Shown piece by piece: positions 24,705 to 37,207 of a stretch of 37,474 nt of DNA (positions are counted from its first letter, which is position 1; the number at the start of each line of letters is the position of its first letter). Made by a program: the position numbers and the translations under genes. Location of the stretch: positions 1 to 37,474 of IMG/VR virus record IMGVR_UViG_3300023118_000242. One strand, given 5' to 3'. Under the pieces are notes generated by a model. The model worked only from the letters and a program-made list of their open reading frames with translations. It had not been told where the DNA came from and did not search any database. Source of the stretch: a virus.

Positions 24705-25073
24705 TCATCGGTTCCAGTGATGCCCAGGATCCACGGGGCGACCGTCAGGGTTGCAGCCTGGAACCGTGCCAGTCCGCTCCATCCGCTGCTTGGTCGAGTC
24801 GTGACAGAATTTGCAGAGACTGGCCCAGTTCGCCGGGTTCCAGAAAAGCTTCCATGCCGCCTTGAGGCGCACTGGATCGCCACTGTCCTTGGCGTCCTTG
24901 AGCTTGGGCGCAATCTTGTGGTCGACGACTGTTGCCGCGACGGGCCGCTGGTCAGTCGAACACATCGTGCAGTAGGGGTTCTCCCGCAGATGCCCTTCGC
25001 GGGACTTCTGCCACTTGTACCCGTAACCGCGCTCCGTGCTACTGCCGCGACGTTCATTGCTCTGACTGGACAT
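24705..25073 (-). CDS. HNH endonuclease, packaging-associated
   Basis: The 122-residue protein has the zinc-ribbon HNH pattern: Cys35-x-x-Cys38, Asp-His (51-52), Asn82 in NPANW, and Cys87-x-x-Cys90-His91. Phage HNH proteins encoded beside the terminase stimulate terminase cleavage at cos (shown for HK97-like phages), so this is probably an essential packaging factor and not a homing nuclease. ATG 25073 lies within the end of the holin gene (20-base overlap). Confidence 0.88.
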   Translation of the reverse strand: MSSQSNERRGSSTERGYGYKWQKSREGHLRENPYCTMCSTDQRPVAATVVDHKIAPKLKDAKDSGDPVRLKAAWKLFWNPANWASLCKFCHDSTKQRMERTGTVPGCNPDGRPVDPGHHWNR

Positions 25074-25398
25074 CGGCAGAAACCTCACGCACGCCCAGCC
25101 GCTTGGCGGCCCAGCGTTCGTACAACCCAATGGCAACGTCAGCGCCCGCCATTGCTGTCAGGCATCCAAGTGCGCCAGAGGTCCAGATCGACATGCCCGC
25201 CGCGTACAGCAGCATGATCGCCGACACCCCGCACACCACGCAGGCGCCGGACCGAAGGGCCAGCCGCCGGATTAGTGCCCAACCTCGCGCCCCTTCTTTG
25301 TCCGCGCGCCACATCTCGCCCGACACGCCGCCCACCAGGGCCAGGACGATCACTAACCAGATCGGCATTTCTGCCAGTGCTTGTTGTTCGTTCGTCAT
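25054..25398 (-). CDS. Holin (three transmembrane segments, LydA-like)
   Basis: The 114-residue protein has three hydrophobic segments: MPIWLVIVLALVGGVSG (near residues 11-27), GACVVCGVSAIMLLYAAGM (~52-70) and WTSGALGCLTAMAGADVAIGLY (~73-94), with a charged stretch between the first two and a hydrophilic C-terminus. This fits the phage holin family found in Pseudomonas prophages, which permeabilises the inner membrane to release the endolysin. It is the first gene of the late operon, some 22 kb from the endolysin and spanins. ATG 25398 is chosen since the longer frame runs through the leader terminator. Confidence 0.75.
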   Translation of the reverse strand: MTNEQQALAEMPIWLVIVLALVGGVSGEMWRADKEGARGWALIRRLALRSGACVVCGVSAIMLLYAAGMSIWTSGALGCLTAMAGADVAIGLYERWAAKRLGVREVSADVQSEQ

Positions 25399-25418: not shown

Positions 25419-25442
25419 AAAACCCGGCGCGAGGGCCGGGTT
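25419..25442 (-). terminator. Leader terminator upstream of the late operon
   Basis: On the minus strand AACCCGGC-CCTCGC-GCCGGGTT (8 perfect base pairs) is followed by TTCGCGTTT. It lies about 40-60 bases downstream of the predicted late transcription start and immediately before the holin gene, the position of tR' in lambda. It is a natural target for the Q-like protein encoded at 25906-26265. Confidence 0.65.
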
Positions 25443-25485
25443 TGTGGTGAGGTCGCTGGTTACGTACCTCTCTGAACATGACTGA

Positions 25486-25514
25486 TTTATACCCCTCCAG
25501 TCCGGTGGCAGCAA
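25486..25514 (-). promoter_or_regulatory. Predicted late promoter (TTGCTG-N17-TATAAA)
   Basis: Minus strand -35 TTGCTG at 25514-25509, 17-base spacer, -10 TATAAA at 25491-25486; start expected near 25479. The weak -35 suggests a need for an activator. It is overlapped by one arm of a 9-base hairpin (GGTGGCAGC 25504-25512 with GCTGCCACC 25524-25532), which also separates the promoter from the P-box-like array. Confidence 0.55.
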
Positions 25515-25534
25515 GCGTTTAGCGCTGCCACCCC

Positions 25535-25600
25535 GCAATCAACGGCCATCAACGGCAATCAGCGGACATATACGGGCAATCAACGGCCATCAACGGACAT
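25535..25600 (-). promoter_or_regulatory. P-box-like array of phased decamers (PrtN-type binding site candidate)
   Basis: Read on the minus strand the region is a run of six adjoining 10-11-base units, ATGTCCGTTG, ATGGCCGTTG, ATTGCCCGTAT, ATGTCCGCTG, ATTGCCGTTG, ATGGCCGTTG, then ATTGC. A 21-base segment (25535-25555) recurs exactly at 25576-25596. The units match the pyocin P-box pattern ATTGnn(n)GTnn(n), described as the site through which PrtN activates pyocin genes. They are spaced one helical turn apart, just upstream of the late promoter. Confidence 0.65.
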
Positions 25601-25696
25601 ATAACGTGACTGGCTATGGCCCCGCAGGGCAGTGACCGACCTGCCCCACACAACTAAAGACAGGTGCGCCAATTGCAGCCCCCAAGAATCAAAGCG

Positions 25697-25887
25697 CTGA
25701 CCTACCGTCCTACTATTTATTACCTTTTCCCCCGTATAGAGAGAGATTAATAAACGCTGCGCGTGACACGCGCGTGCGAGGGTGTACGCACTACGCGGGG
25801 AAATCCCAGAAAAGGTAGGACAGTAGGTCAGAGCCCCGATTGGCGGGCGCTGCGCCTGCTCCACCAGCAATAGCACCAGTAGGTCAG
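25697..25887. other. Candidate replication origin: inverted repeat, iterons, AT-rich segments
   Basis: A 17-base inverted repeat with one mismatch (25697-25713 with 25815-25831) encloses ~100 bases containing AT-rich tracts (25714-25723, 25746-25754) and a 15-base palindrome GCGCGTG-A-CACGCGC (25759-25773). CAGTAGGTCAG occurs directly repeated at 25821-25831 and 25877-25887, and its relative is inverted at 25697. No gene is supported across 25601-25905. The position just downstream of the primase/helicase and antiterminator genes suits an origin, but no function is proven. Confidence 0.4.
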
Positions 25888-25905
25888 GCAAGCCAAAAGG
25901 CACAA

Positions 25906-26265
25906 TCACGCTGCGCGCTCCAGCAACAAACCCGCTATCTCCAGATGGGCAGCATGCAAGCGCTCATAGAACTGCGTACGTCCGCATCCACAATGTGCCC
26001 ACTTCTGCCGTTCCAGGCTGGATCTATTCAGATAATGCTCACGCACCACCTGCTCCAACGGCCACGCCAGATGCTTGTTCACGATCAATTCTATATCTGC
26101 GCTGTAGGGCAGAAGCATCCTAGATCCACCGCACGATCCACGTATCAACTCACCCCGGCAATCCATCAACTGTCCCAACATACTGCTGACACCGCCGCCG
26201 GCCCCCGTGCCTCCATGCATATCCAGCGCCCAGAGTTTCAGCATCTCATCCATTTCAGGAATCAA
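25906..26265 (-). CDS. Q: Q-like late antiterminator (Phage_antitermQ type)
   Basis: The ~119-residue product resembles Q-type antiterminators of lambdoid prophages: an MDEMLKLWALDMHGG start, R-G-S-C-G-G-S, DIELIVNKHLAWPLEQVVREHYL, and a C-terminal helix-turn-helix-like segment with GCGRTQFYERLHAAHLEIAG. I use TTG 26265, which overlaps the primase stop (TTGA) and has AGGAG eight bases upstream; ATG 26253 in frame is the alternative. It lies directly before the late promoter and leader terminator, as Q does in lambda, and should load onto RNA polymerase there to read through the terminators of the late operon. Confidence 0.7.
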   Translation of the reverse strand: MIPEMDEMLKLWALDMHGGTGAGGGVSSMLGQLMDCRGELIRGSCGGSRMLLPYSADIELIVNKHLAWPLEQVVREHYLNRSSLERQKWAHCGCGRTQFYERLHAAHLEIAGLLLERAA

Positions 26266-28484
26266 AATGCAGTCTCCTGTGTGGGCTCGATAATTCTGCG
26301 CTTCCACTCAGCCGGCTTCAAATACTCATAACCACGAACGCCAGCAGGGCCACTAGTACGGCGTCGGCGCGGCCATTTCAGCCGATGCATAATCTTGCCG
26401 ATCCGCATCTGCTCAGGCTTGCCCCAGTGGCTCGGGTCAATATTCAGCGCATGCTGCAACAGGTGTGCGCCCGTCACAGTTTCGCCGAGATGCTTGGCTG
26501 CCAGGTAGTGAACCACTGGTTCTTCCCACATATCCGCCTGGAAGCGCTTATCCTGCTCAGCCGCAAACAGTTCGTTCTCTTCACGCTCAGCCCACCAAAT
26601 ATCACCCGCGCGAAAACAGGCTACCGCCTCGGCCCAGAGTTGATCACGCTCAGCCCGCAGGCCATCCAGATCAACCTTCGTACACGTCACCGGCCAATAA
26701 CGGCGGTTGCCCGTGTCATCCTTTAGGTACTCATCCTGGTTAGTGGTGCCGATAAATACACTCTGGCGCGGCACACTCAAATGCCGCCGCCCGTAGCTCT
26801 CTCGGTAATGGTCCGTAGCCGATGAAACAAATTGCTTGGCCTTTGTTGTATCGGACTTATTCAGTGCATCCAGTTCCGCCATCTCGATGATCCACTTACC
26901 CCGGATCGCCTGATACGCATCCTTGCTGCTCATGTCGAATGCCGTATCCATAAACCACTTACCGGCAAGTATGCCTGCAGCAGTCGACTTACCCTCCCCC
27001 TGCAACCCCTCCAGAATGAGCATCACATCGACCTTACAGCCAGGCTGGAAAACACGTGCTACAGCAGACAGCAACCAGCGCTTACCCACCTTCCGCGTGT
27101 AATCACTATCAGCAACGCCCAGCCGATCCTGTAGCCAATGCTCCAGTCGCGGAGCGCCATCCCACACCAACCCGCCCAAATAATCGCGCACCGGATGAAA
27201 GGCATTGTCATGCGCAACTGAGTTAACCGCCTCAAACACATTTGGTGACTTCACGGACAACCCGTAAACCTCGGCCAGCCACATCATCACCTTAATATCG
27301 TCTATATCCTCCCAGTCACCTGCATTGCCACCAAAAGGCGGTGTACGAGCCTTAATAATTTTCGACGCGAACGAATCCCACGCAATCACCCCGCTCCAGC
27401 GCGAGTCATTACCCAGAATCAATCCGACGTTATAAGGGTGCGCCAAAATCCCACCCTTAGCAGACCGCAACAGCTTTTCATGCCATCCGGCATCCGTCGC
27501 CGGTCTTACCAGCGCCAACACCTGGCGGCGCACCGCATCTAAACCCTCAGCACAATGCAAGTCGTTAAAATCCGTCCAACCAGCCTCACGGTCATTATCG
27601 AAGATCGGCAATACCACCTGACCACCAACGACCACCGCCGCGTTCTCCGCTTTCACCTTGCCCGTGTTGAACGGCTTGCCCTGCACCTGGGTTTTCCAAT
27701 CATCATCGGCACAGAACAACAGCGGGCGACCGGGGTAACGCACACGCAGGCCCTGCGCTACCGGCAACAGATTGCCAGCATCGAAGCACACAGCCACCGT
27801 CAGCGCCGTCGCCATATGCAAGCTCGCTCCGGTCACGTACCCCTCGCACACCAGAATCGCATCACCGGGCTCAGGTTCAGGGCCGATCAAATGCACTGCC
27901 CCCTCTTTCTCCAAGCCCGCCGGCCAATACGTCTTATTACGCCCCAGCTTGGGCTGCACTTCGGGGAACAACACCTGCAGGCCGATCACCTCCCTGGTTT
28001 TGACACTGCGCATTGGTACAAGCGCACAGCCCGATTTGTTCTTATAACGCAGGCCAAAACCGGCCACACGCTTCGCATCCAGATATGCGCAATGGCCCTT
28101 TACCTCCAAATGCTTCCACATACCCGCAGCACGGCGCGCGGCAGTTCGATGCTTGCGTGCCTCGGCTTCAGCCGCCTTACGCTGACCCTCCTCGGCCCGC
28201 GCCCGCATCACTGCCCGATCCTCAGCGCTCAACCGGCCACCCTTGACCTTAATCTTCTGCCAACTCCCCTTTTCACCCTGGCGCCAGTCACCAAACGCAC
28301 CGCAATACAACGTCTTGCCGCCAGTCAGATGTTCATAGATCACATACCAGCCCGTTTTTTCGGGGGCCTTATCACCGTCGCACTCACTGCGCGTCCGTTT
28401 ACCAATCACCAGTGGAGTTTCAGGTTTAAGCCCGTAGTCCTGCAGTTGGGCCAACACATCATCGAGCAGTTCGTGATTAGTCAT
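26262..28484 (-). CDS. Phage primase/helicase with TOPRIM and VapE-type domains
   Basis: The 740-residue protein joins an N-terminal region (no clear zinc-finger), a TOPRIM domain (CEGYVTGASL with Glu214; CADDD 258-262) and a C-terminal VapE/D5-like ATPase: Walker A GLQGEGKST (493-501), Walker B IIEMAELD (532-539), sensor IGTTN (578-582) and GNRRYWPV (592-599). This is the P4-alpha-like layout of primase plus helicase and probably starts phage DNA replication. Neighbours overlap by four bases on both sides (zinc-finger protein upstream, Q-like protein downstream). Confidence 0.9.
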   Translation of the reverse strand: MTNHELLDDVLAQLQDYGLKPETPLVIGKRTRSECDGDKAPEKTGWYVIYEHLTGGKTLYCGAFGDWRQGEKGSWQKIKVKGGRLSAEDRAVMRARAEEGQRKAAEAEARKHRTAARRAAGMWKHLEVKGHCAYLDAKRVAGFGLRYKNKSGCALVPMRSVKTREVIGLQVLFPEVQPKLGRNKTYWPAGLEKEGAVHLIGPEPEPGDAILVCEGYVTGASLHMATALTVAVCFDAGNLLPVAQGLRVRYPGRPLLFCADDDWKTQVQGKPFNTGKVKAENAAVVVGGQVVLPIFDNDREAGWTDFNDLHCAEGLDAVRRQVLALVRPATDAGWHEKLLRSAKGGILAHPYNVGLILGNDSRWSGVIAWDSFASKIIKARTPPFGGNAGDWEDIDDIKVMMWLAEVYGLSVKSPNVFEAVNSVAHDNAFHPVRDYLGGLVWDGAPRLEHWLQDRLGVADSDYTRKVGKRWLLSAVARVFQPGCKVDVMLILEGLQGEGKSTAAGILAGKWFMDTAFDMSSKDAYQAIRGKWIIEMAELDALNKSDTTKAKQFVSSATDHYRESYGRRHLSVPRQSVFIGTTNQDEYLKDDTGNRRYWPVTCTKVDLDGLRAERDQLWAEAVACFRAGDIWWAEREENELFAAEQDKRFQADMWEEPVVHYLAAKHLGETVTGAHLLQHALNIDPSHWGKPEQMRIGKIMHRLKWPRRRRTSGPAGVRGYEYLKPAEWKRRIIEPTQETAF

Positions 28485-28699
28485 GAGCGCACCCCACGCC
28501 GGTCGGCCAGTTCCTGGCAGTCAGTGCAGCGTGTACAGCCGCGATCAAGCATCGCCAGCCGCCGAGCCTCAAGAATGCCCTCCCCGCAGTCCACACACTC
28601 AAGAGCGCATTGACCTGGGTTGGCGGTAGGTCGAGCGGCCATGGCCAGCGCGAGATTAAGGGCGATAACATCATCAGCAACATCTGCATTGTCAGACAT
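28481..28699 (-). CDS. TraR/DksA-type C4 zinc-finger protein
   Basis: The 72-residue protein contains C-x-x-C-G-x17-C-x-x-C, as in CVDCGEGILEARRLAMLDRGC and TDC, the zinc finger of TraR/DksA-family proteins. F-plasmid TraR binds in the RNA polymerase secondary channel without ppGpp; phage-encoded short members are thought to act likewise or to be remnants of that fold. GGAGG precedes ATG 28699. It overlaps both neighbours by 4-8 bases, so it belongs to the early left operon. Confidence 0.8.
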   Translation of the reverse strand: MSDNADVADDVIALNLALAMAARPTANPGQCALECVDCGEGILEARRLAMLDRGCTRCTDCQELADRRGVRS

Positions 28700-29859: not shown

Positions 29860-29926
29860 ATTATAACTTTAGGATTAATTGATCAACAACCTTAGCTGTT
29901 GGACATTCTATAACCACAGTTATAAC
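29860..29926. promoter_or_regulatory. CI/Cro switch: divergent promoters and operators
   Basis: For cro (minus): TTGTTG (plus 29884-29889), 18-base spacer, TATAAT (plus 29860-29865). For the repressor (plus): TTGGAC 29899-29904, 16-base spacer, TATAAC 29921-29926. Operator-like elements: TATAAC-CACA-GTTATA (29909-29924), CAACA-N8-TGTTG (29884-29901), and ATAACTTTAGG (29863-29873). The palindromes cover the -10 of the repressor promoter and the -35 of the cro promoter, so both are likely autoregulated. Confidence 0.6.
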
Positions 29927-29934
29927 CTGCACCT

Positions 29935-30720
29935 ATGAACTATTTAGATAAAACTCAGCTACCTACCCTCGCAGATCGCCTGAGTTACGCGATGTCTCAG
30001 TGCAATTTCAGCCAAGAAGCCCTGGCTTCAGCTGCTGGATGCACGCAAGCCAGCATTCAGAAGATAAGCTCTGGAAAGTCTCAAAAAAGCCGATTCTTGC
30101 CTGCAATTGCACGAGCACTGCAGGTCGACATAGATTGGCTTGAGCTGGGCGTGATCCCGATCCCCCAATCAACCAACGAAACCATCCGCAAGTACCGCCC
30201 ACAAGACGGAACCCCACTTGCGCTGGGCGAACTTTCGTTATGGGACGACTCAACTCCAATGAAAGGCGAAGAGATCGCCTTGCCCCTTTATAAGGAAGTC
30301 GAGATAGCTTCAGGACTGGGAAAGTCGTCAATTCAGATTGACGATGGGCGCAAGGTTTGGTTTTCCAGCTACACATTGCGTAAAGCAGGCGTAGATCCCT
30401 CTAACGCCGCTTGCGCCACAAACACAGGTAATTCTAATCATCCCCTGATCCTAGACCGCGCGACACTTGGCGTTGATAAAGGAACGACGAAGATCATCGA
30501 CGGGCAAATTTATGCGCTCGAGCATGACGGTCTTTTGAGGGTCAAATTCCTTTACCGCATCTCCGGCGGCATTCGCCTAAGAAGCTTCAACCACGAAGAG
30601 TACGCCGACGAAGACTATTCCTTCGAAGAGGTGATGGAACAACGCATTCAAATAATCGGCAGAATTTTTTGGTGGTCCACCCTAAACCTCATAAATTCTT
30701 CACTCCTCCCCAAAAATTAA
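29935..30720 (+). CDS. cI: CI-like repressor, S24/LexA-type peptidase fold
   Basis: The 261-residue protein has an N-terminal helix-turn-helix (about residues 12-60; FSQEALASAAGCTQASIQKISSG) and a C-terminal S24 domain. The nucleophile block reads TGNSNHPLI (Ser167), compared with the family GNSMEP, and a Lys204 follows in LRVKFLYR, so the Ser/Lys dyad is kept. The usual Ala-Gly cleavage site appears as Ala125-Ser126-Gly127 in EIASGLG, a possible change in self-cleavage. It resembles PrtR-type repressors of Pseudomonas and should keep the prophage silent until DNA damage. Confidence 0.88.
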   Translation: MNYLDKTQLPTLADRLSYAMSQCNFSQEALASAAGCTQASIQKISSGKSQKSRFLPAIARALQVDIDWLELGVIPIPQSTNETIRKYRPQDGTPLALGELSLWDDSTPMKGEEIALPLYKEVEIASGLGKSSIQIDDGRKVWFSSYTLRKAGVDPSNAACATNTGNSNHPLILDRATLGVDKGTTKIIDGQIYALEHDGLLRVKFLYRISGGIRLRSFNHEEYADEDYSFEEVMEQRIQIIGRIFWWSTLNLINSSLLPKN

Positions 30721-30731
30721 TCGCTAGGTTA

Positions 30732-30760
30732 TTGAACCAAATTAAAACCTAAGTTATTTT
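30732..30760 (+). promoter_or_regulatory. Predicted promoter of the rightward small-gene operon with operator-like sequence
   Basis: TTGAAC (30732-30737), 17-base spacer, TATTTT (30755-30760). The spacer and -10 contain AACCTAAGTTAT, whose complement ATAACTTAGGTTTTAATT closely resembles ATAACTTTAGGATTAATT in the CI/Cro switch (29863-29880). The same repressor may therefore control this operon. Confidence 0.5.
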
Positions 30761-32003: not shown

Positions 32004-32451
32004 CACTTTACTGATCGAGCTGCTGAACCTGCCCGAAGAACGTCGTACGGCTGAGAAGATTCTTGCCAACCTCACCTTGGCTGCCACCGCCGCCGGCGCT
32101 TCCCTCACCATCACTGGCGCGCCGCTGCAAATCGAGCACCTACAACTGGCGGCTGCTCTCGACCAACTCGTCGTCGATCTCGGCCCCAACTACCGTGCTC
32201 GCGCCATGCTGCGCCTTGGCTACGGCATTGAGGGAGTTGAGCTAGGTGCAGTGCTCGAACCGCTCGACAGCACCTCCACACTGCCGCGTTTCGTGGCCTT
32301 TGGCAGCACAGCACGCACAGCGCTGGCAGCCATCAACCGCGACATCCGAGCAAGCCACCTACCTCATGCCAAAGCAGCGCCGCAACGTAAAACTGGAAAA
32401 CTGACGCTCGGCAGCCTCCAAGCGCAAATAGATAAGGCCAACGCAGCATGA
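31984..32451 (+). CDS. Hypothetical phage protein, 155 aa
   Basis: ATG 31984 is preceded by GAGGT at a good distance, so the longer frame back to 31882 is rejected. The product (DRKLIDTLLIELLNLPEERRTAEKILANLTLAA...) is helical with a Lys/Arg-rich C-terminus. No family is recognised. It ends with an ATGA overlap to the PrtN-like gene, which makes it a member of the same coupled operon. Confidence 0.6.
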   Translation: MDRKLIDTLLIELLNLPEERRTAEKILANLTLAATAAGASLTITGAPLQIEHLQLAAALDQLVVDLGPNYRARAMLRLGYGIEGVELGAVLEPLDSTSTLPRFVAFGSTARTALAAINRDIRASHLPHAKAAPQRKTGKLTLGSLQAQIDKANAA

Positions 32452-32783
32452 CGGCCTCCCCACAGCGCGAACTGCGCCTGCCGAAAGTGCCCAGAAGTCA
32501 AACGGTTGAGCTGCTGTACCGAATCTTCGGGGACCTGCTCGTCCCCTTCGAACAGGTACGCGAACGCTACTTCAGCAATCTCAACCAGGACAACTTCACT
32601 CGCGCACTAACAAGTGGCCGTGTGGCGCTGCCTATCACCACCCTGGATACCAGCGCCAAGCGTTCCCGCTTCATCGACATCCGCCATCTGGCCATCTTCA
32701 TTGATACGCAGGCGGATGCCGCAGATGAGGAGATGGCAAAGACTCAATCTCACACGTTAACCGATACCCCCAACAACAGCTAA
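32448..32783 (+). CDS. prtN: PrtN-family transcription activator
   Basis: The 111-residue product resembles the pyocin activator PrtN across residues 18-97: TVELLYRIFGDLLVPFEQVRERYFSNLNQDNFTRALTSGRVALPI, then KRSRFIDIRHLAIFIDTQADAADEEM. In P. aeruginosa PrtN is held down by PrtR and, after DNA damage, activates pyocin genes through the P-box. Here it would be released with the CI-like repressor and act at the P-box-like array 25535-25600. ATG 32448 overlaps the preceding stop (ATGA). Confidence 0.75.
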   Translation: MTASPQRELRLPKVPRSQTVELLYRIFGDLLVPFEQVRERYFSNLNQDNFTRALTSGRVALPITTLDTSAKRSRFIDIRHLAIFIDTQADAADEEMAKTQSHTLTDTPNNS

Positions 32784-33995: not shown

Positions 33996-34279
33996 AGAAC
34001 CAACAGGAAAAAATCAGCGCCGGTGCCGCTTTGCTCCGCAGCACCAGTGGTGTCGACACGCCAGTAATAAACAGTCTCTGCTGCGCAGCAGCAGGCATTA
34101 TTGCTCTTCCCAGCGCCACTGCCGAGGCACGTCCCCCCCACGAAAAGCTGCGCGGGGCAGCGGTCAGTGATGCAACGCTTACCGCTTCGGCACGCCCGCT
34201 CGCGCAGCCTGTCGTGGAGTATACGCAAGTTTCAGAACTTTTAGATTGCAATACCACGCGATTACCCATGGAGCGATGA
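33992..34279 (+). CDS. Hypothetical protein, 95 aa
   Basis: ATG 33992 overlaps the HD gene stop. The product is Ala/Ser/Thr-rich with low complexity, an unusual composition for this operon, and ends within the excisionase leader. No family is recognised, and part of the frame may be untranslated leader; I give it modest confidence. Confidence 0.45.
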   Translation: MKNQQEKISAGAALLRSTSGVDTPVINSLCCAAAGIIALPSATAEARPPHEKLRGAAVSDATLTASARPLAQPVVEYTQVSELLDCNTTRLPMER

Positions 34280-34284
34280 GGCTT

Positions 34285-34560
34285 ATGCGCTACATGACCA
34301 TCAGGAAGTTCGCCAGCGAGTCTGGCTACACAGAAGACGCGATCCGCTCAAAAATCCGCGATGGGATCTGGCGGCTCGGTGAAATTTGGACCAGAGCGCC
34401 GGATGGCCGGACGCTGATTGACGTGGAAGGGTATGAGTCATGGGTAGAGGCGGGAGGGGAGTTCGGGCAGTCTCCGATTCGAGTATCGAAATCACGTTCA
34501 TGTATCGGGGCGTCAGGTGCCGCGAGCGGATCACGCTCAAGCCCACCGCCACTAATCTGA
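34285..34560 (+). CDS. xis: Excisionase-like protein (Xis)
   Basis: The central motif MTIRKFASESGYTEDAIRSKIRDGIWRLGEIWTRAPDGRTLIDVEGYESWVEAG is a winged-helix excisionase pattern found next to DUF3596-type integrases. ATG 34285 is used; ATG 34294 and 34276 are alternatives. The C-terminal ~30 residues overlap the integrase start by 121 bases, which is typical of xis-int pairs and suggests coordinated expression. Confidence 0.75.
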   Translation: MRYMTIRKFASESGYTEDAIRSKIRDGIWRLGEIWTRAPDGRTLIDVEGYESWVEAGGEFGQSPIRVSKSRSCIGASGAASGSRSSPPPLI

Positions 34561-35600
34561 AGAAGGCCGAACTACACAAAGCTGCGATCGAACATGCCAT
34601 ATCAATTGGCACCTTCGACTACTCGGTGACATTCCCGAGATCTCCCCGTGCGGCAAAGTTTGCACCTGAGACTTCCCGGGAGACGCTTAGTGGTTTCTTG
34701 ATCAGGTGGTTGAATGCTAAAGAACAGCACGTCGCCAGTAGCACCTTCGATGGCTACCGGAAGCTGGTCACTTTGCGTTTGATACCGGCTCTGGGCGACA
34801 CAATGCTCGTGGACTTAAAGCGCAAAGCAGTTCGAGATTGGCTCAATACTCTCGAAGTCAGTAACAAGACGCTTAGAAATATCCAGAGCTGCCTGCGATC
34901 GGCCCTCAACGATGCTGCTGAAGAAGAACTTTTAGAATTGAATCCGCTGGCTGGCTGGACTTACTCACGCAAGGCGGGACCGCCAAAAGAAGATGATATT
35001 GATCCTTTCAGCCCAGACGAACAGCAAAAAATCCTGGCCGTACTATCCGGGCAGGCTCGTAATATGATTCAGTTCGCTCTGTGGACGGGGCTGCGTACAA
35101 GCGAGTTGGTAGCATTAAATTGGGGCGATATTGACTGGCAGCGCGAAGAAGTCATGGTTAGGCGCGCGATGACACAGGCCAGTAAGGGAAAAGCGGAAAC
35201 TACAAAGACCGCTGCCGGACGTAGACGCGTGAAGCTTCTAAGGCCAGCGCTGGAAGCGTTGAATGCTCAGAAGGCGCACACGTTTCAAGCAAATGCAGAG
35301 GTATTCCAAAACCCACGCACGATGAAGCGATGGACCGGCGATGGACCTATTCGGAAGACGATGTGGATGCCAGCGATGACAAAGTCTGATGTCCGTTACC
35401 GCCGCCCCTATCAGACCCGCCACACCTTCGCTTCAATGATGCTGTCTGCAGGCGAGCACCCTATGTGGGTTGCTAAACAGATGGGTCACACCGACTGGAC
35501 TATGATTGCCAGGGTGTACGGGAGGTGGATGCCGTCTGCTGATACTGAGGCTGGATCCAAAGCTGAACGTCTTTGGCATATCGAAGTTGGCCCTCCATGA
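34440..35600 (+). CDS. int: Phage integrase, tyrosine recombinase
   Basis: The 386-residue protein has an N-terminal arm-binding domain of the DUF3596 type (GVRAVSDSSIEITFMYRGVRCRERITL), a core-binding domain (ETLSGFLIRWLNAKEQHVASSTFDGYRKLV) and a catalytic domain with Arg219 (TGLRTSE), Arg327 (YQTRHTFAS; the first His of the HxxR box is Tyr324, as in relatives), His350 (MGHTD) and nucleophile Tyr360. It should recombine attP with the host attB; the nearby tmRNA-like fragment is the likely crossover end. Confidence 0.92.
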   Translation: MGRGGRGVRAVSDSSIEITFMYRGVRCRERITLKPTATNLKKAELHKAAIEHAISIGTFDYSVTFPRSPRAAKFAPETSRETLSGFLIRWLNAKEQHVASSTFDGYRKLVTLRLIPALGDTMLVDLKRKAVRDWLNTLEVSNKTLRNIQSCLRSALNDAAEEELLELNPLAGWTYSRKAGPPKEDDIDPFSPDEQQKILAVLSGQARNMIQFALWTGLRTSELVALNWGDIDWQREEVMVRRAMTQASKGKAETTKTAAGRRRVKLLRPALEALNAQKAHTFQANAEVFQNPRTMKRWTGDGPIRKTMWMPAMTKSDVRYRRPYQTRHTFASMMLSAGEHPMWVAKQMGHTDWTMIARVYGRWMPSADTEAGSKAERLWHIEVGPP

Positions 35601-35704
35601 TCGTCGGCTGAATGAGATGCACCTCAAAGAAAAGCTGCGAAGATTTAACAGTAATAGCGTGGCATGGTTTAGCATGCGCTGAGTCGAATTTGGAGGAGGC
35701 TGGA

Positions 35705-36763
35705 ATGGCAATTTATGCGGTTTGGAACAATAAAGGCGGGGTTGGGAAAAGCTATCTGACGTTCCAGATCGCCTCTGAGTACGCTCGTCAGAATCCTGAC
35801 AAGAGAGTTTTGGTGATTGACGTGTGCCCTCAAGCCAACTCATCTTCAATGATTTTGGGGGGCATCGAAGACGGCGAAAATGCTCTTTCGGCAATCCACC
35901 AGGGCAATCCAAGACGGACAATAGCGGGCTATATTGAAGACCGCATCTTGAGTCCATACGTGAACCCGAATACTGGTGCCAATTTTGTCACGCATGCAAG
36001 AACCATTAACGTTAGTGTTCCAGACAACTTATATCTTGTAGTTGGGGACGAACAATTAGAGATCCAGGCGTCGCGCGTAATGTCGGCGACTTTTCCGGGG
36101 CCTCAGGATGCATGGCGGATAGTACATACTTGGCTTAGCGACTTAATAAATGATGTCGCAAATAGCTGGAATCAGGGCGAACACACTGTTTTCATTGACT
36201 GCAACCCGAGCTTCTCTGTGTATACCGAGCTGGCAATGTCAGCTGCCGATCGTCTGCTGATACCTTTCTCCGCTGACGGTTCAAGCAAGAGAGCTGTGCG
36301 GGCAGTGCTGTCTCTTGTATACGGTATAGCTAGACAACCAGGCCAGCAGCAGTCGGAATTTTTCATCAACACAACTCGATACCGAATGAGCTTTCCGGAC
36401 ATATATATGTATATCGGAAACCGACTCACTCAGATGAATCAATCTTCAGCAGCTGCATTTAAAACTGTTGTAAATGAGATCGGTGACGAGATTTACGAGG
36501 TATGGAAATCGAATGCTAACTTATTCTGCATTCACCCAAACGGCACTGCCATTCCGAGCAATAAACGCTTGTTTAAATCAATGTTTCAGTATGAAGTAAA
36601 CGACGCAAATACAGCATCGGTGGTATCAGGGGCATCCGGAATTCCAATTTCCACCCTTCGCTCCGGGCAAGCAAACGTGCTGGGTAAGTCTGTTACAGTC
36701 AATCAGAGCCAACTCGACAAACAAGTACCCAACATTGTGGATCTAGTTAGCGCCATCGAATGA
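35705..36763 (+). CDS. ParA-like ATPase without a ParB partner (cargo gene)
   Basis: The 352-residue protein has the deviant Walker A NNKGGVGKSYLT (signature Lys10, Lys15), Walker A' VLVIDVCPQAN (35-45; Asp39, Gln43) and Walker B TVFIDCNPSF (161-170). The C-terminal ~140 residues do not resemble plasmid ParA and may carry a target-recognition domain. The gene is more AT-rich than the phage genes, sits between integrase and the right attachment site, has its own GGAGGAGG ribosome binding site and no adjacent ParB. This place is a common one for accessory or defence genes, but its function is unknown. Confidence 0.8.
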   Translation: MAIYAVWNNKGGVGKSYLTFQIASEYARQNPDKRVLVIDVCPQANSSSMILGGIEDGENALSAIHQGNPRRTIAGYIEDRILSPYVNPNTGANFVTHARTINVSVPDNLYLVVGDEQLEIQASRVMSATFPGPQDAWRIVHTWLSDLINDVANSWNQGEHTVFIDCNPSFSVYTELAMSAADRLLIPFSADGSSKRAVRAVLSLVYGIARQPGQQQSEFFINTTRYRMSFPDIYMYIGNRLTQMNQSSAAAFKTVVNEIGDEIYEVWKSNANLFCIHPNGTAIPSNKRLFKSMFQYEVNDANTASVVSGASGIPISTLRSGQANVLGKSVTVNQSQLDKQVPNIVDLVSAIE

Positions 36764-36802: not shown

Positions 36803-36841
36803 GGGGGGTTGGACGAAGGTTCAAATCCCCCCGGCCCACCA
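36803..36841 (+). other. tmRNA/tRNA 3'-end fragment, probable right attachment site (attR)
   Basis: The segment GGACGAAGGTTCAAATCC (36811-36828) followed by a C-run, GG and CCCACCA to 36841 resembles the T-arm and acceptor 3' strand of tmRNA (compare E. coli GGACGCGGGTTCAACTCC ... CCACCA). The acceptor strand appears one base short and the T-stem 5' strand does not pair well, so this is a fragment and not a working gene. GGGGGG at 36803-36808 can pair with CCCCCC at 36827-36832. The intact gene would lie to the left of this window if the element is integrated at ssrA. Confidence 0.5.
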
Positions 36842-36880: not shown

Positions 36881-37207
36881 TTGTTTCTGGGGTTTGAAAA
36901 GCCCGACAGGATGAACCTTCAGAATTTTCCTTCAAGCTATCGCGCCCTTGATGAACTGGCGCAACCCGCGCCACACAGCTAACTTCCTCCCGTCGCTGCT
37001 CATCAGCGACCGGCTTTGACAGGCCGAAAAGTGTAACCTTTCACACCCCTTGATAAGACGGCATGCTTGACGCGTTCCGCCTCGCTCATGGCGGCTGTGC
37101 GTGGGGCATCTTCGGGTGCGCCGGGTTCCTACACTTCCGGTCTGTCAACCCGCGTACAGCTGCCATCCATTCCTGTTTGACAGCAGGGGGCGGTAGCTCC
37201 TTAAACA
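36881..37207 (+). other. Host intergenic region with structured leader of the DUF6124-type gene
   Basis: No gene is supported. The + strand shows an 11-base-pair outer stem (37088-37098 with 37156-37166, one G-U), an inner stem CGGGTT/AACCCG (37122-37127 with 37147-37152) and a hairpin with CATC-TTCG-GGTG. This compact multi-stem structure just upstream of a DUF6124-type gene suggests a regulatory leader RNA. I recall similar leaders upstream of this family in other Pseudomonas genomes, but cannot verify it here. Confidence 0.45.

Follow-up and report, generated by a model that had tools for sequence, protein, structure and literature searches.

The window analyzed here, meaning the whole 37,474-nt stretch of IMGVR_UViG_3300023118_000242, carries on its minus strand a cII-like gene, a DksA/TraR zinc-finger gene, a VapE-type primase-helicase gene and a PA0613-type gene, followed by ~300 bp, a repeat array, a promoter, a terminator and the holin gene, with the terminase large subunit further on. 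The plus strand encodes an S24-type CI repressor, three small genes, a PrtN homologue, further small genes, an excisionase, an integrase and a ParA-like ATPase (Table 1).

Table 1 Features of the late-gene control region and the neighboring repressor and integration genes in the window (strand "." where none applies).
Feature	Position	Strand	Basis
Holin, first late gene (PF16085)	25054..25398	-	PF16085 E 2e-54
GC-rich terminator-like hairpin AAACCCGGC/GCCGGGTTT, 9-bp stem, weak U tail	25420..25443	-	
Predicted leader-RNA hairpin GAGGU..ACCUC	25449..25470	-	Weak covariation
-10-like CATGTT in the initially transcribed region, candidate sigma-dependent pause element	25475..25480	-	
Late promoter: -35 TTGCTG (25514-25509), 17-bp spacer, -10 TATAAA (25491-25486)	25486..25514	-	
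Inverted repeat GGTGGCAGC-N11-GCTGCCACC across the -35	25504..25532	-	
Six 10/11-bp direct repeats, P-box-like, candidate PrtN sites	25540..25600	-	Chain search, shuffles
PA0613-family gene, candidate Q/AlpA-type antiterminator	25906..26265	-	NF051483
Primase-helicase gene, inserted between ptrB-like and PA0613-like genes; missing from the pyocin module	26262..28484	-	
DksA/TraR zinc-finger gene, pyocin ptrB counterpart	28484..28699	-	
Two repressor-operator-like sites upstream of cI	29862..29925	.	
S24-type CI repressor, 52% identical to P. aeruginosa PrtR	29935..30720	+	
Two further operator-like sites, between cI and the prtN operon	30717..30758	.	Motif derived from same sites
prtN homologue, candidate late-promoter activator	32448..32783	+	PF11112
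Separate excisionase (34246-34560, PHROG 9668) and tyrosine integrase (34440-35600, PHROG 1, PF00589)	34246..35600	+	

An earlier note, made from the letters of this DNA, had described six phased minus-strand decamers matching ATTGnn(n)GTnn(n) upstream of the late promoter. Six helically phased repeats are indeed present, reading ATGTCCGTTG, ATGGCCGTTG, ATTGCCCGTAT, ATGTCCGCTG, ATTGCCGTTG and ATGGCCGTTG from 25600 to 25540, with a degenerate seventh unit (ATTGCGGGGT) extending the array to 25530; the strict motif is matched by only two of the six, the others deviating at positions 3-4 or 8, and all six match a relaxed P-box that allows two-way choices at positions 3, 4 and 8. The array is not a chance product: the longest P-box chain in 300 Markov shuffles was two units, and a chain search of the whole window found no chain of more than one unit elsewhere. 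Across loci, a 10/11-bp periodicity upstream of the -35 was detected in 67 of 107, versus 4 of 107 in a control stretch, whereas by the same test the R-pyocin arrays of P. aeruginosa are irregular, with no significant periodicity. PrtN has been reported to bind a P-box at the R/F cluster promoter of P. aeruginosa (PMC8609362), and the repeats here are likely PrtN binding sites. Phages Haddon (L152), vB_Pae_U5 and LPPA36 share with the window the PrtN, PrtR-like repressor, DksA-like, primase and PA0613-like genes as well as the promoter and terminator, but their array is built of an 11-bp unit of other sequence (TCCGGGACGAG) in place of the P-box; at L152, L153 and L154 this array stands upstream of the same promoter and PrtN is 53% identical. 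By these comparisons, either the PrtN recognition site must have drifted, or the reader of the array must be a protein other than PrtN, and a change of PrtN specificity is possible.

The late promoter stands as the earlier note had read it, sigma70-like with a weak -35, and a generic promoter scan called no sigma70 consensus site there; a sigma54 reading of TGGCA..TTGCT was ruled out by its wrong spacing. When loci were searched with an anchor of TTG-N20-T..AAA plus a terminator, which leaves the intervening sequence and everything downstream of the -10 unconstrained, exactly one late promoter was recovered in 115 of 128, and most of the remaining 13 fail the strict terminator rule alone; about 115 other Pseudomonas loci share the promoter. 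In each of the 107 unique promoters, [C/T]AnnnT starts exactly 5 nt past the -10 hexamer, the sole offset at which it occurs (TAnnnT instead of CAnnnT in three). Three spacer bases, A(-10), T(-8) and G(-1), numbered back from the start of the -10 hexamer, hardly vary among them. The spacer in the window contains CGGACTN5GGTA, resembling the AlpA binding motif GGGACGN5GGTA (PMC7969949), and scores 8/10 against it, as does the R-pyocin spacer; over the 107 promoters the mean score is 6.57/10 at the spacer register and at most 3.95 at other registers, one of the ten letters being fixed by the promoter anchor. Both Q and AlpA depend on two elements, one -10-like and located in the initially transcribed region, the other embedded in the promoter, with a terminator downstream (PMC9371919). 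Judged from sequence, the late promoters have this Q/AlpA-type anatomy, and the spacer element is a putative binding site. The inverted repeat across the -35 can also be written TGGCA-N17-TGCCA, which places its half-sites about two helical turns apart; ~100 phage promoters conserve it, and the R-pyocin promoters lack it.

Between the promoter and the holin gene, a terminator lies ~60 nt past the promoter in nearly all loci. The terminator that the earlier note had placed before the first late gene was recovered in the window as an inverted repeat at 25443-25420, although a terminator consensus scan of the window did not call it; the T run that follows is short, and with such a U tail the terminator may be leaky here. 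The PF16085 match begins at residue 28 of the longer holin ORF. A hairpin also lies between the start site and the terminator in most loci, with a sequence that differs from locus to locus. A joint alignment of all leaders mixed unlike hairpins, and class-wise alignments were used instead; as covariation in these is weak, we do not claim a conserved leader RNA element. An Rfam search at the late promoter returned no match.

The gene that the earlier note called Q-like, and took to end just upstream of the promoter region, ends at 25906, with about 300 bp between it and the array, and Pfam and PDB sequence searches found no similarity of its product to known Q families. It belongs instead to the PA0613 family (NCBIfam equivalog NF051483, 166.7 bits versus a curated cut-off of 100), matches PHROG 4300 (database label 'unknown') and has no Pfam match; its TTG start overlaps the primase stop. 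Since AlpA, 21Q and lambda Q are themselves mutually dissimilar in sequence (PMC9371919), the lack of resemblance to Q says little. Structurally, AlphaFold predicts with confidence a C-terminal helix-turn-helix (HTH) resembling sigma region 4, and a flexible N-terminal loop (residues 19-49, pLDDT <50). Foldseek ranked sigma region 4 first among 69 matches to this model, which also included Q21 chains 6p19, 6jnx, 6p18 and 6p1a and AlpA 7xya, at E-values of 1.5-4.1 that are not significant (TM at most 0.5; 0.48-0.50 for Q21). The protein is probably the module's antiterminator.

The PrtN homologue proposed earlier is borne out by its match to PF11112 (E 9.7e-25, 86.9 bits, cut-off 24.2) and is 59% identical to P. 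aeruginosa PrtN of L003; Foldseek on its model gave generic winged-helix matches only. A palindrome-like motif occurs four times around cI, twice at positions preceding the prtN operon, an arrangement that is suggestive of repression of prtN by CI, the motif having been derived from these very sites.

Pyocins are phage-tail killing particles, and the R/F-pyocin region of P. aeruginosa (prtN-prtR-ptrB-PA0613-hol, with PrtN acting at the P-box) has the same genes in the same order as the phage. At L003 (OQ658366) and L142 (P. aeruginosa PA7), prtN, prtR, a ptrB-like zinc-finger gene and PA0613 are followed by repeats, the promoter, the terminator, the holin gene and tail genes, with PA0613 positioned between ptrB and hol. 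Also shared are the repeats before the late promoter, the architecture of -10, -10-like element and terminator, and the holin as first late gene, whereas the phage module adds the primase-helicase, cII and accessory genes and the TGGCA/TGCCA repeat spanning the -35, and its 10-bp array is more regular. A search with the PA0613-like protein returned 50 loci in viral contigs and 77 in genomes, Pseudomonas wherever a name is given, and the layout is common to about 120 Pseudomonas loci, P. aeruginosa R-pyocins included; the module is therefore not peculiar to this phage. In 25 genomes of the genus of PA7, a PF11112 gene lies within 8 kb of 22 of the 23 PA0613-family genes, and PF11112 is present in 18/18 genomes with PA0613 and in 1/7 without it, counts that come from related genomes and do not amount to a formal test. 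From sequence comparison, then, this is a late-gene control module common to a family of Pseudomonas temperate phages and the R-type pyocins, and in the window it is carried by a whole phage. The P. fluorescens tailocin EU982300 was ruled out as a source of the whole module, as the stretch examined shares the holin but lacks prtN, PA0613 and the P-box array. Contig L059 carries PrtN and PA0613-type genes in tandem, two of each, and may hold a pyocin-like module beside a phage module.

With AlpA and Q21 the late promoter shares, as candidate elements, an element between the -35 and -10, a -10-like sequence after the start and a terminator downstream, and the predicted PA0613 fold shares an HTH of the sigma-R4 type; it differs in that PA0613 has no detectable sequence similarity to them and in its added upstream activator array. 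The closest precedent for a two-lock logic appears, by analogy, to be the Caulobacter gene transfer agent (GTA), in which GafY and IHF activate and GafZ antiterminates (PMC11150451), so the pairing of activation with antitermination is already known. Under the series model proposed below, both would have two-tier control at one promoter, by an activator and an antiterminator with a site between the -35 and -10, but the GTA terminator follows the first gene, and the likeness is one of logic, the systems seeming otherwise unrelated.

Functionally, we consider it probable that PrtN activation and PA0613 antitermination act in series at the one late promoter. SOS cleavage of the PrtR-like CI would free two operons (their order of release is inferred), one making PrtN and the other, with the dksA-like, primase and PA0613-like genes, making the PA0613-family protein last. 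A row of PrtN molecules on the phased repeats would then recruit RNA polymerase to a promoter with a poor -35; the polymerase would pause at the -10-like CAnnnT, the PA0613 protein would load at its spacer site between the -35 and -10, and the polymerase, now modified, would pass the terminator ~60 nt downstream into the holin, terminase and structural genes. PrtN would thus act at initiation, and PA0613, encoded by the last gene of the early operon, at elongation. The series arrangement had been put forward in the earlier note, and the array, the Q/AlpA-type anatomy, the terminator and the 22/23 linkage fit it; neither the idea that such a combination is unusual nor the idea that pyocins use PrtN alone is supported: at L003 and L142 the R-pyocin cluster matches the phage in gene order and in its repeats, promoter and terminator. 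We count in favor of the series model the clade of the PrtN homologue, the non-chance array, the R-pyocin gene order, the promoter anatomy, the linkage, the repressor-like sites and, at the level of a predicted model, the sigma-R4-like HTH of PA0613. Against it we count the absence of a significant Foldseek match to Q21 or AlpA and of sequence similarity to Q, the short U tail of a terminator not called by the consensus scan, the strict P-box in only two of six units, the TCCGGGACGAG arrays of Haddon, U5 and LPPA36, and the non-periodic R-pyocin arrays of P. aeruginosa.

A simpler scheme, in which PrtN alone switches the late operon, the PA0613 protein is otherwise employed (for example in modulating lysis or replication) and the terminator does no more than limit leakage or gives way to strong transcription, strikes us as unlikely. 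PrtN is the sole published pyocin activator that we found (PMC8609362), the open-access papers examined that name PA0613 with pyocins give the protein no function, and the short U tail would suit such a terminator; yet a -10-like element at a fixed offset and a conserved spacer would be superfluous for simple activation, the predicted HTH fold and the gene position of PA0613 match those of Q genes, and the terminator before the holin is kept in nearly all loci. Antitermination by RNA, with the leader hairpin acting like HK022 put RNA and PA0613 as a DNA-binding co-activator, we hold to be highly improbable: the hairpin ahead of the terminator does recur with differing sequences, but covariation is slight (one pair changed on both sides, in three sequences of a class-wise alignment), and RNAalifold on the other leader class found no consensus hairpin of the GAGGU..ACCUC kind.

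It is also quite improbable that the PrtN homologue is the prophage excisionase, or recombination directionality factor (RDF), with the repeats having another binder or role. PHROG 1300, which the protein matches, is labeled excisionase, prtN lies about 1.5 kb from xis-int, and RdfN of the dusA-specific islands, likewise of the PF11112 family, is a proven RDF (PMC8409611). Against this, the prophage encodes a separate Xis beside Int, so the PrtN homologue would not be the element's sole RDF. In a PF11112 tree, from which RdfN is absent, the window protein falls together with P. aeruginosa PrtN, apart from a separate clade of integrase-side copies (support for the split 100/100; branches long); phages Haddon, L055 and L074 carry a second PF11112 gene, which adjoins the integrase in Haddon and L074. 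R-pyocin clusters, moreover, keep prtN beside prtR, and the stretches of them examined contain neither terminase nor replication genes. Activators of the PrtN clade are annotated 'excisionase' in the Haddon, U5 and OQ658366 records, a name that probably traces to PHROG 1300, and these comparisons suggest that the label given by phage pipelines is wrong. Most improbable of all is an origin reading, in which the primase-helicase, whose gene lies just upstream, would use the repeats as replication-origin iterons: direct repeats do stand close to a replication gene, but R-pyocin loci keep the region right upstream of the same promoter without a primase, and in every phage the repeats directly adjoin the -35.

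Returning to serial control by PrtN and PA0613, we lean toward the view that PA0613 represents a further, sequence-unrelated lineage of Q/AlpA-type processive antiterminators, and that late transcription of R/F-pyocins and of phages in Pseudomonas needs both locks. If so, the model in which PrtN switches on pyocins would lack a second essential regulator, located inside the cluster itself, and pyocin production would be gated at elongation as well as at initiation. Such gating could account for why pyocin expression and lysis are tightly silenced and set in late. Pyocins and a family of intact phages have one control module in common, and a testable function is offered for PA0613, a conserved gene of the R-pyocin cluster.

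At the integrase-side end of the prophage, the ParA-like ATPase gene (AAA_31, 35612-36763) occupies an unusual location between the integrase and the tRNA-like end. Just outside this end and its tRNA-3'-end-like sequence (~36815-36841), Rfam identified a C4 antisense RNA (36979-37030) and an a1/b1 target (37084-37170; RF01695 and RF03163). These are immunity elements of P1 and P4, and the pair is perhaps the remnant of another element.
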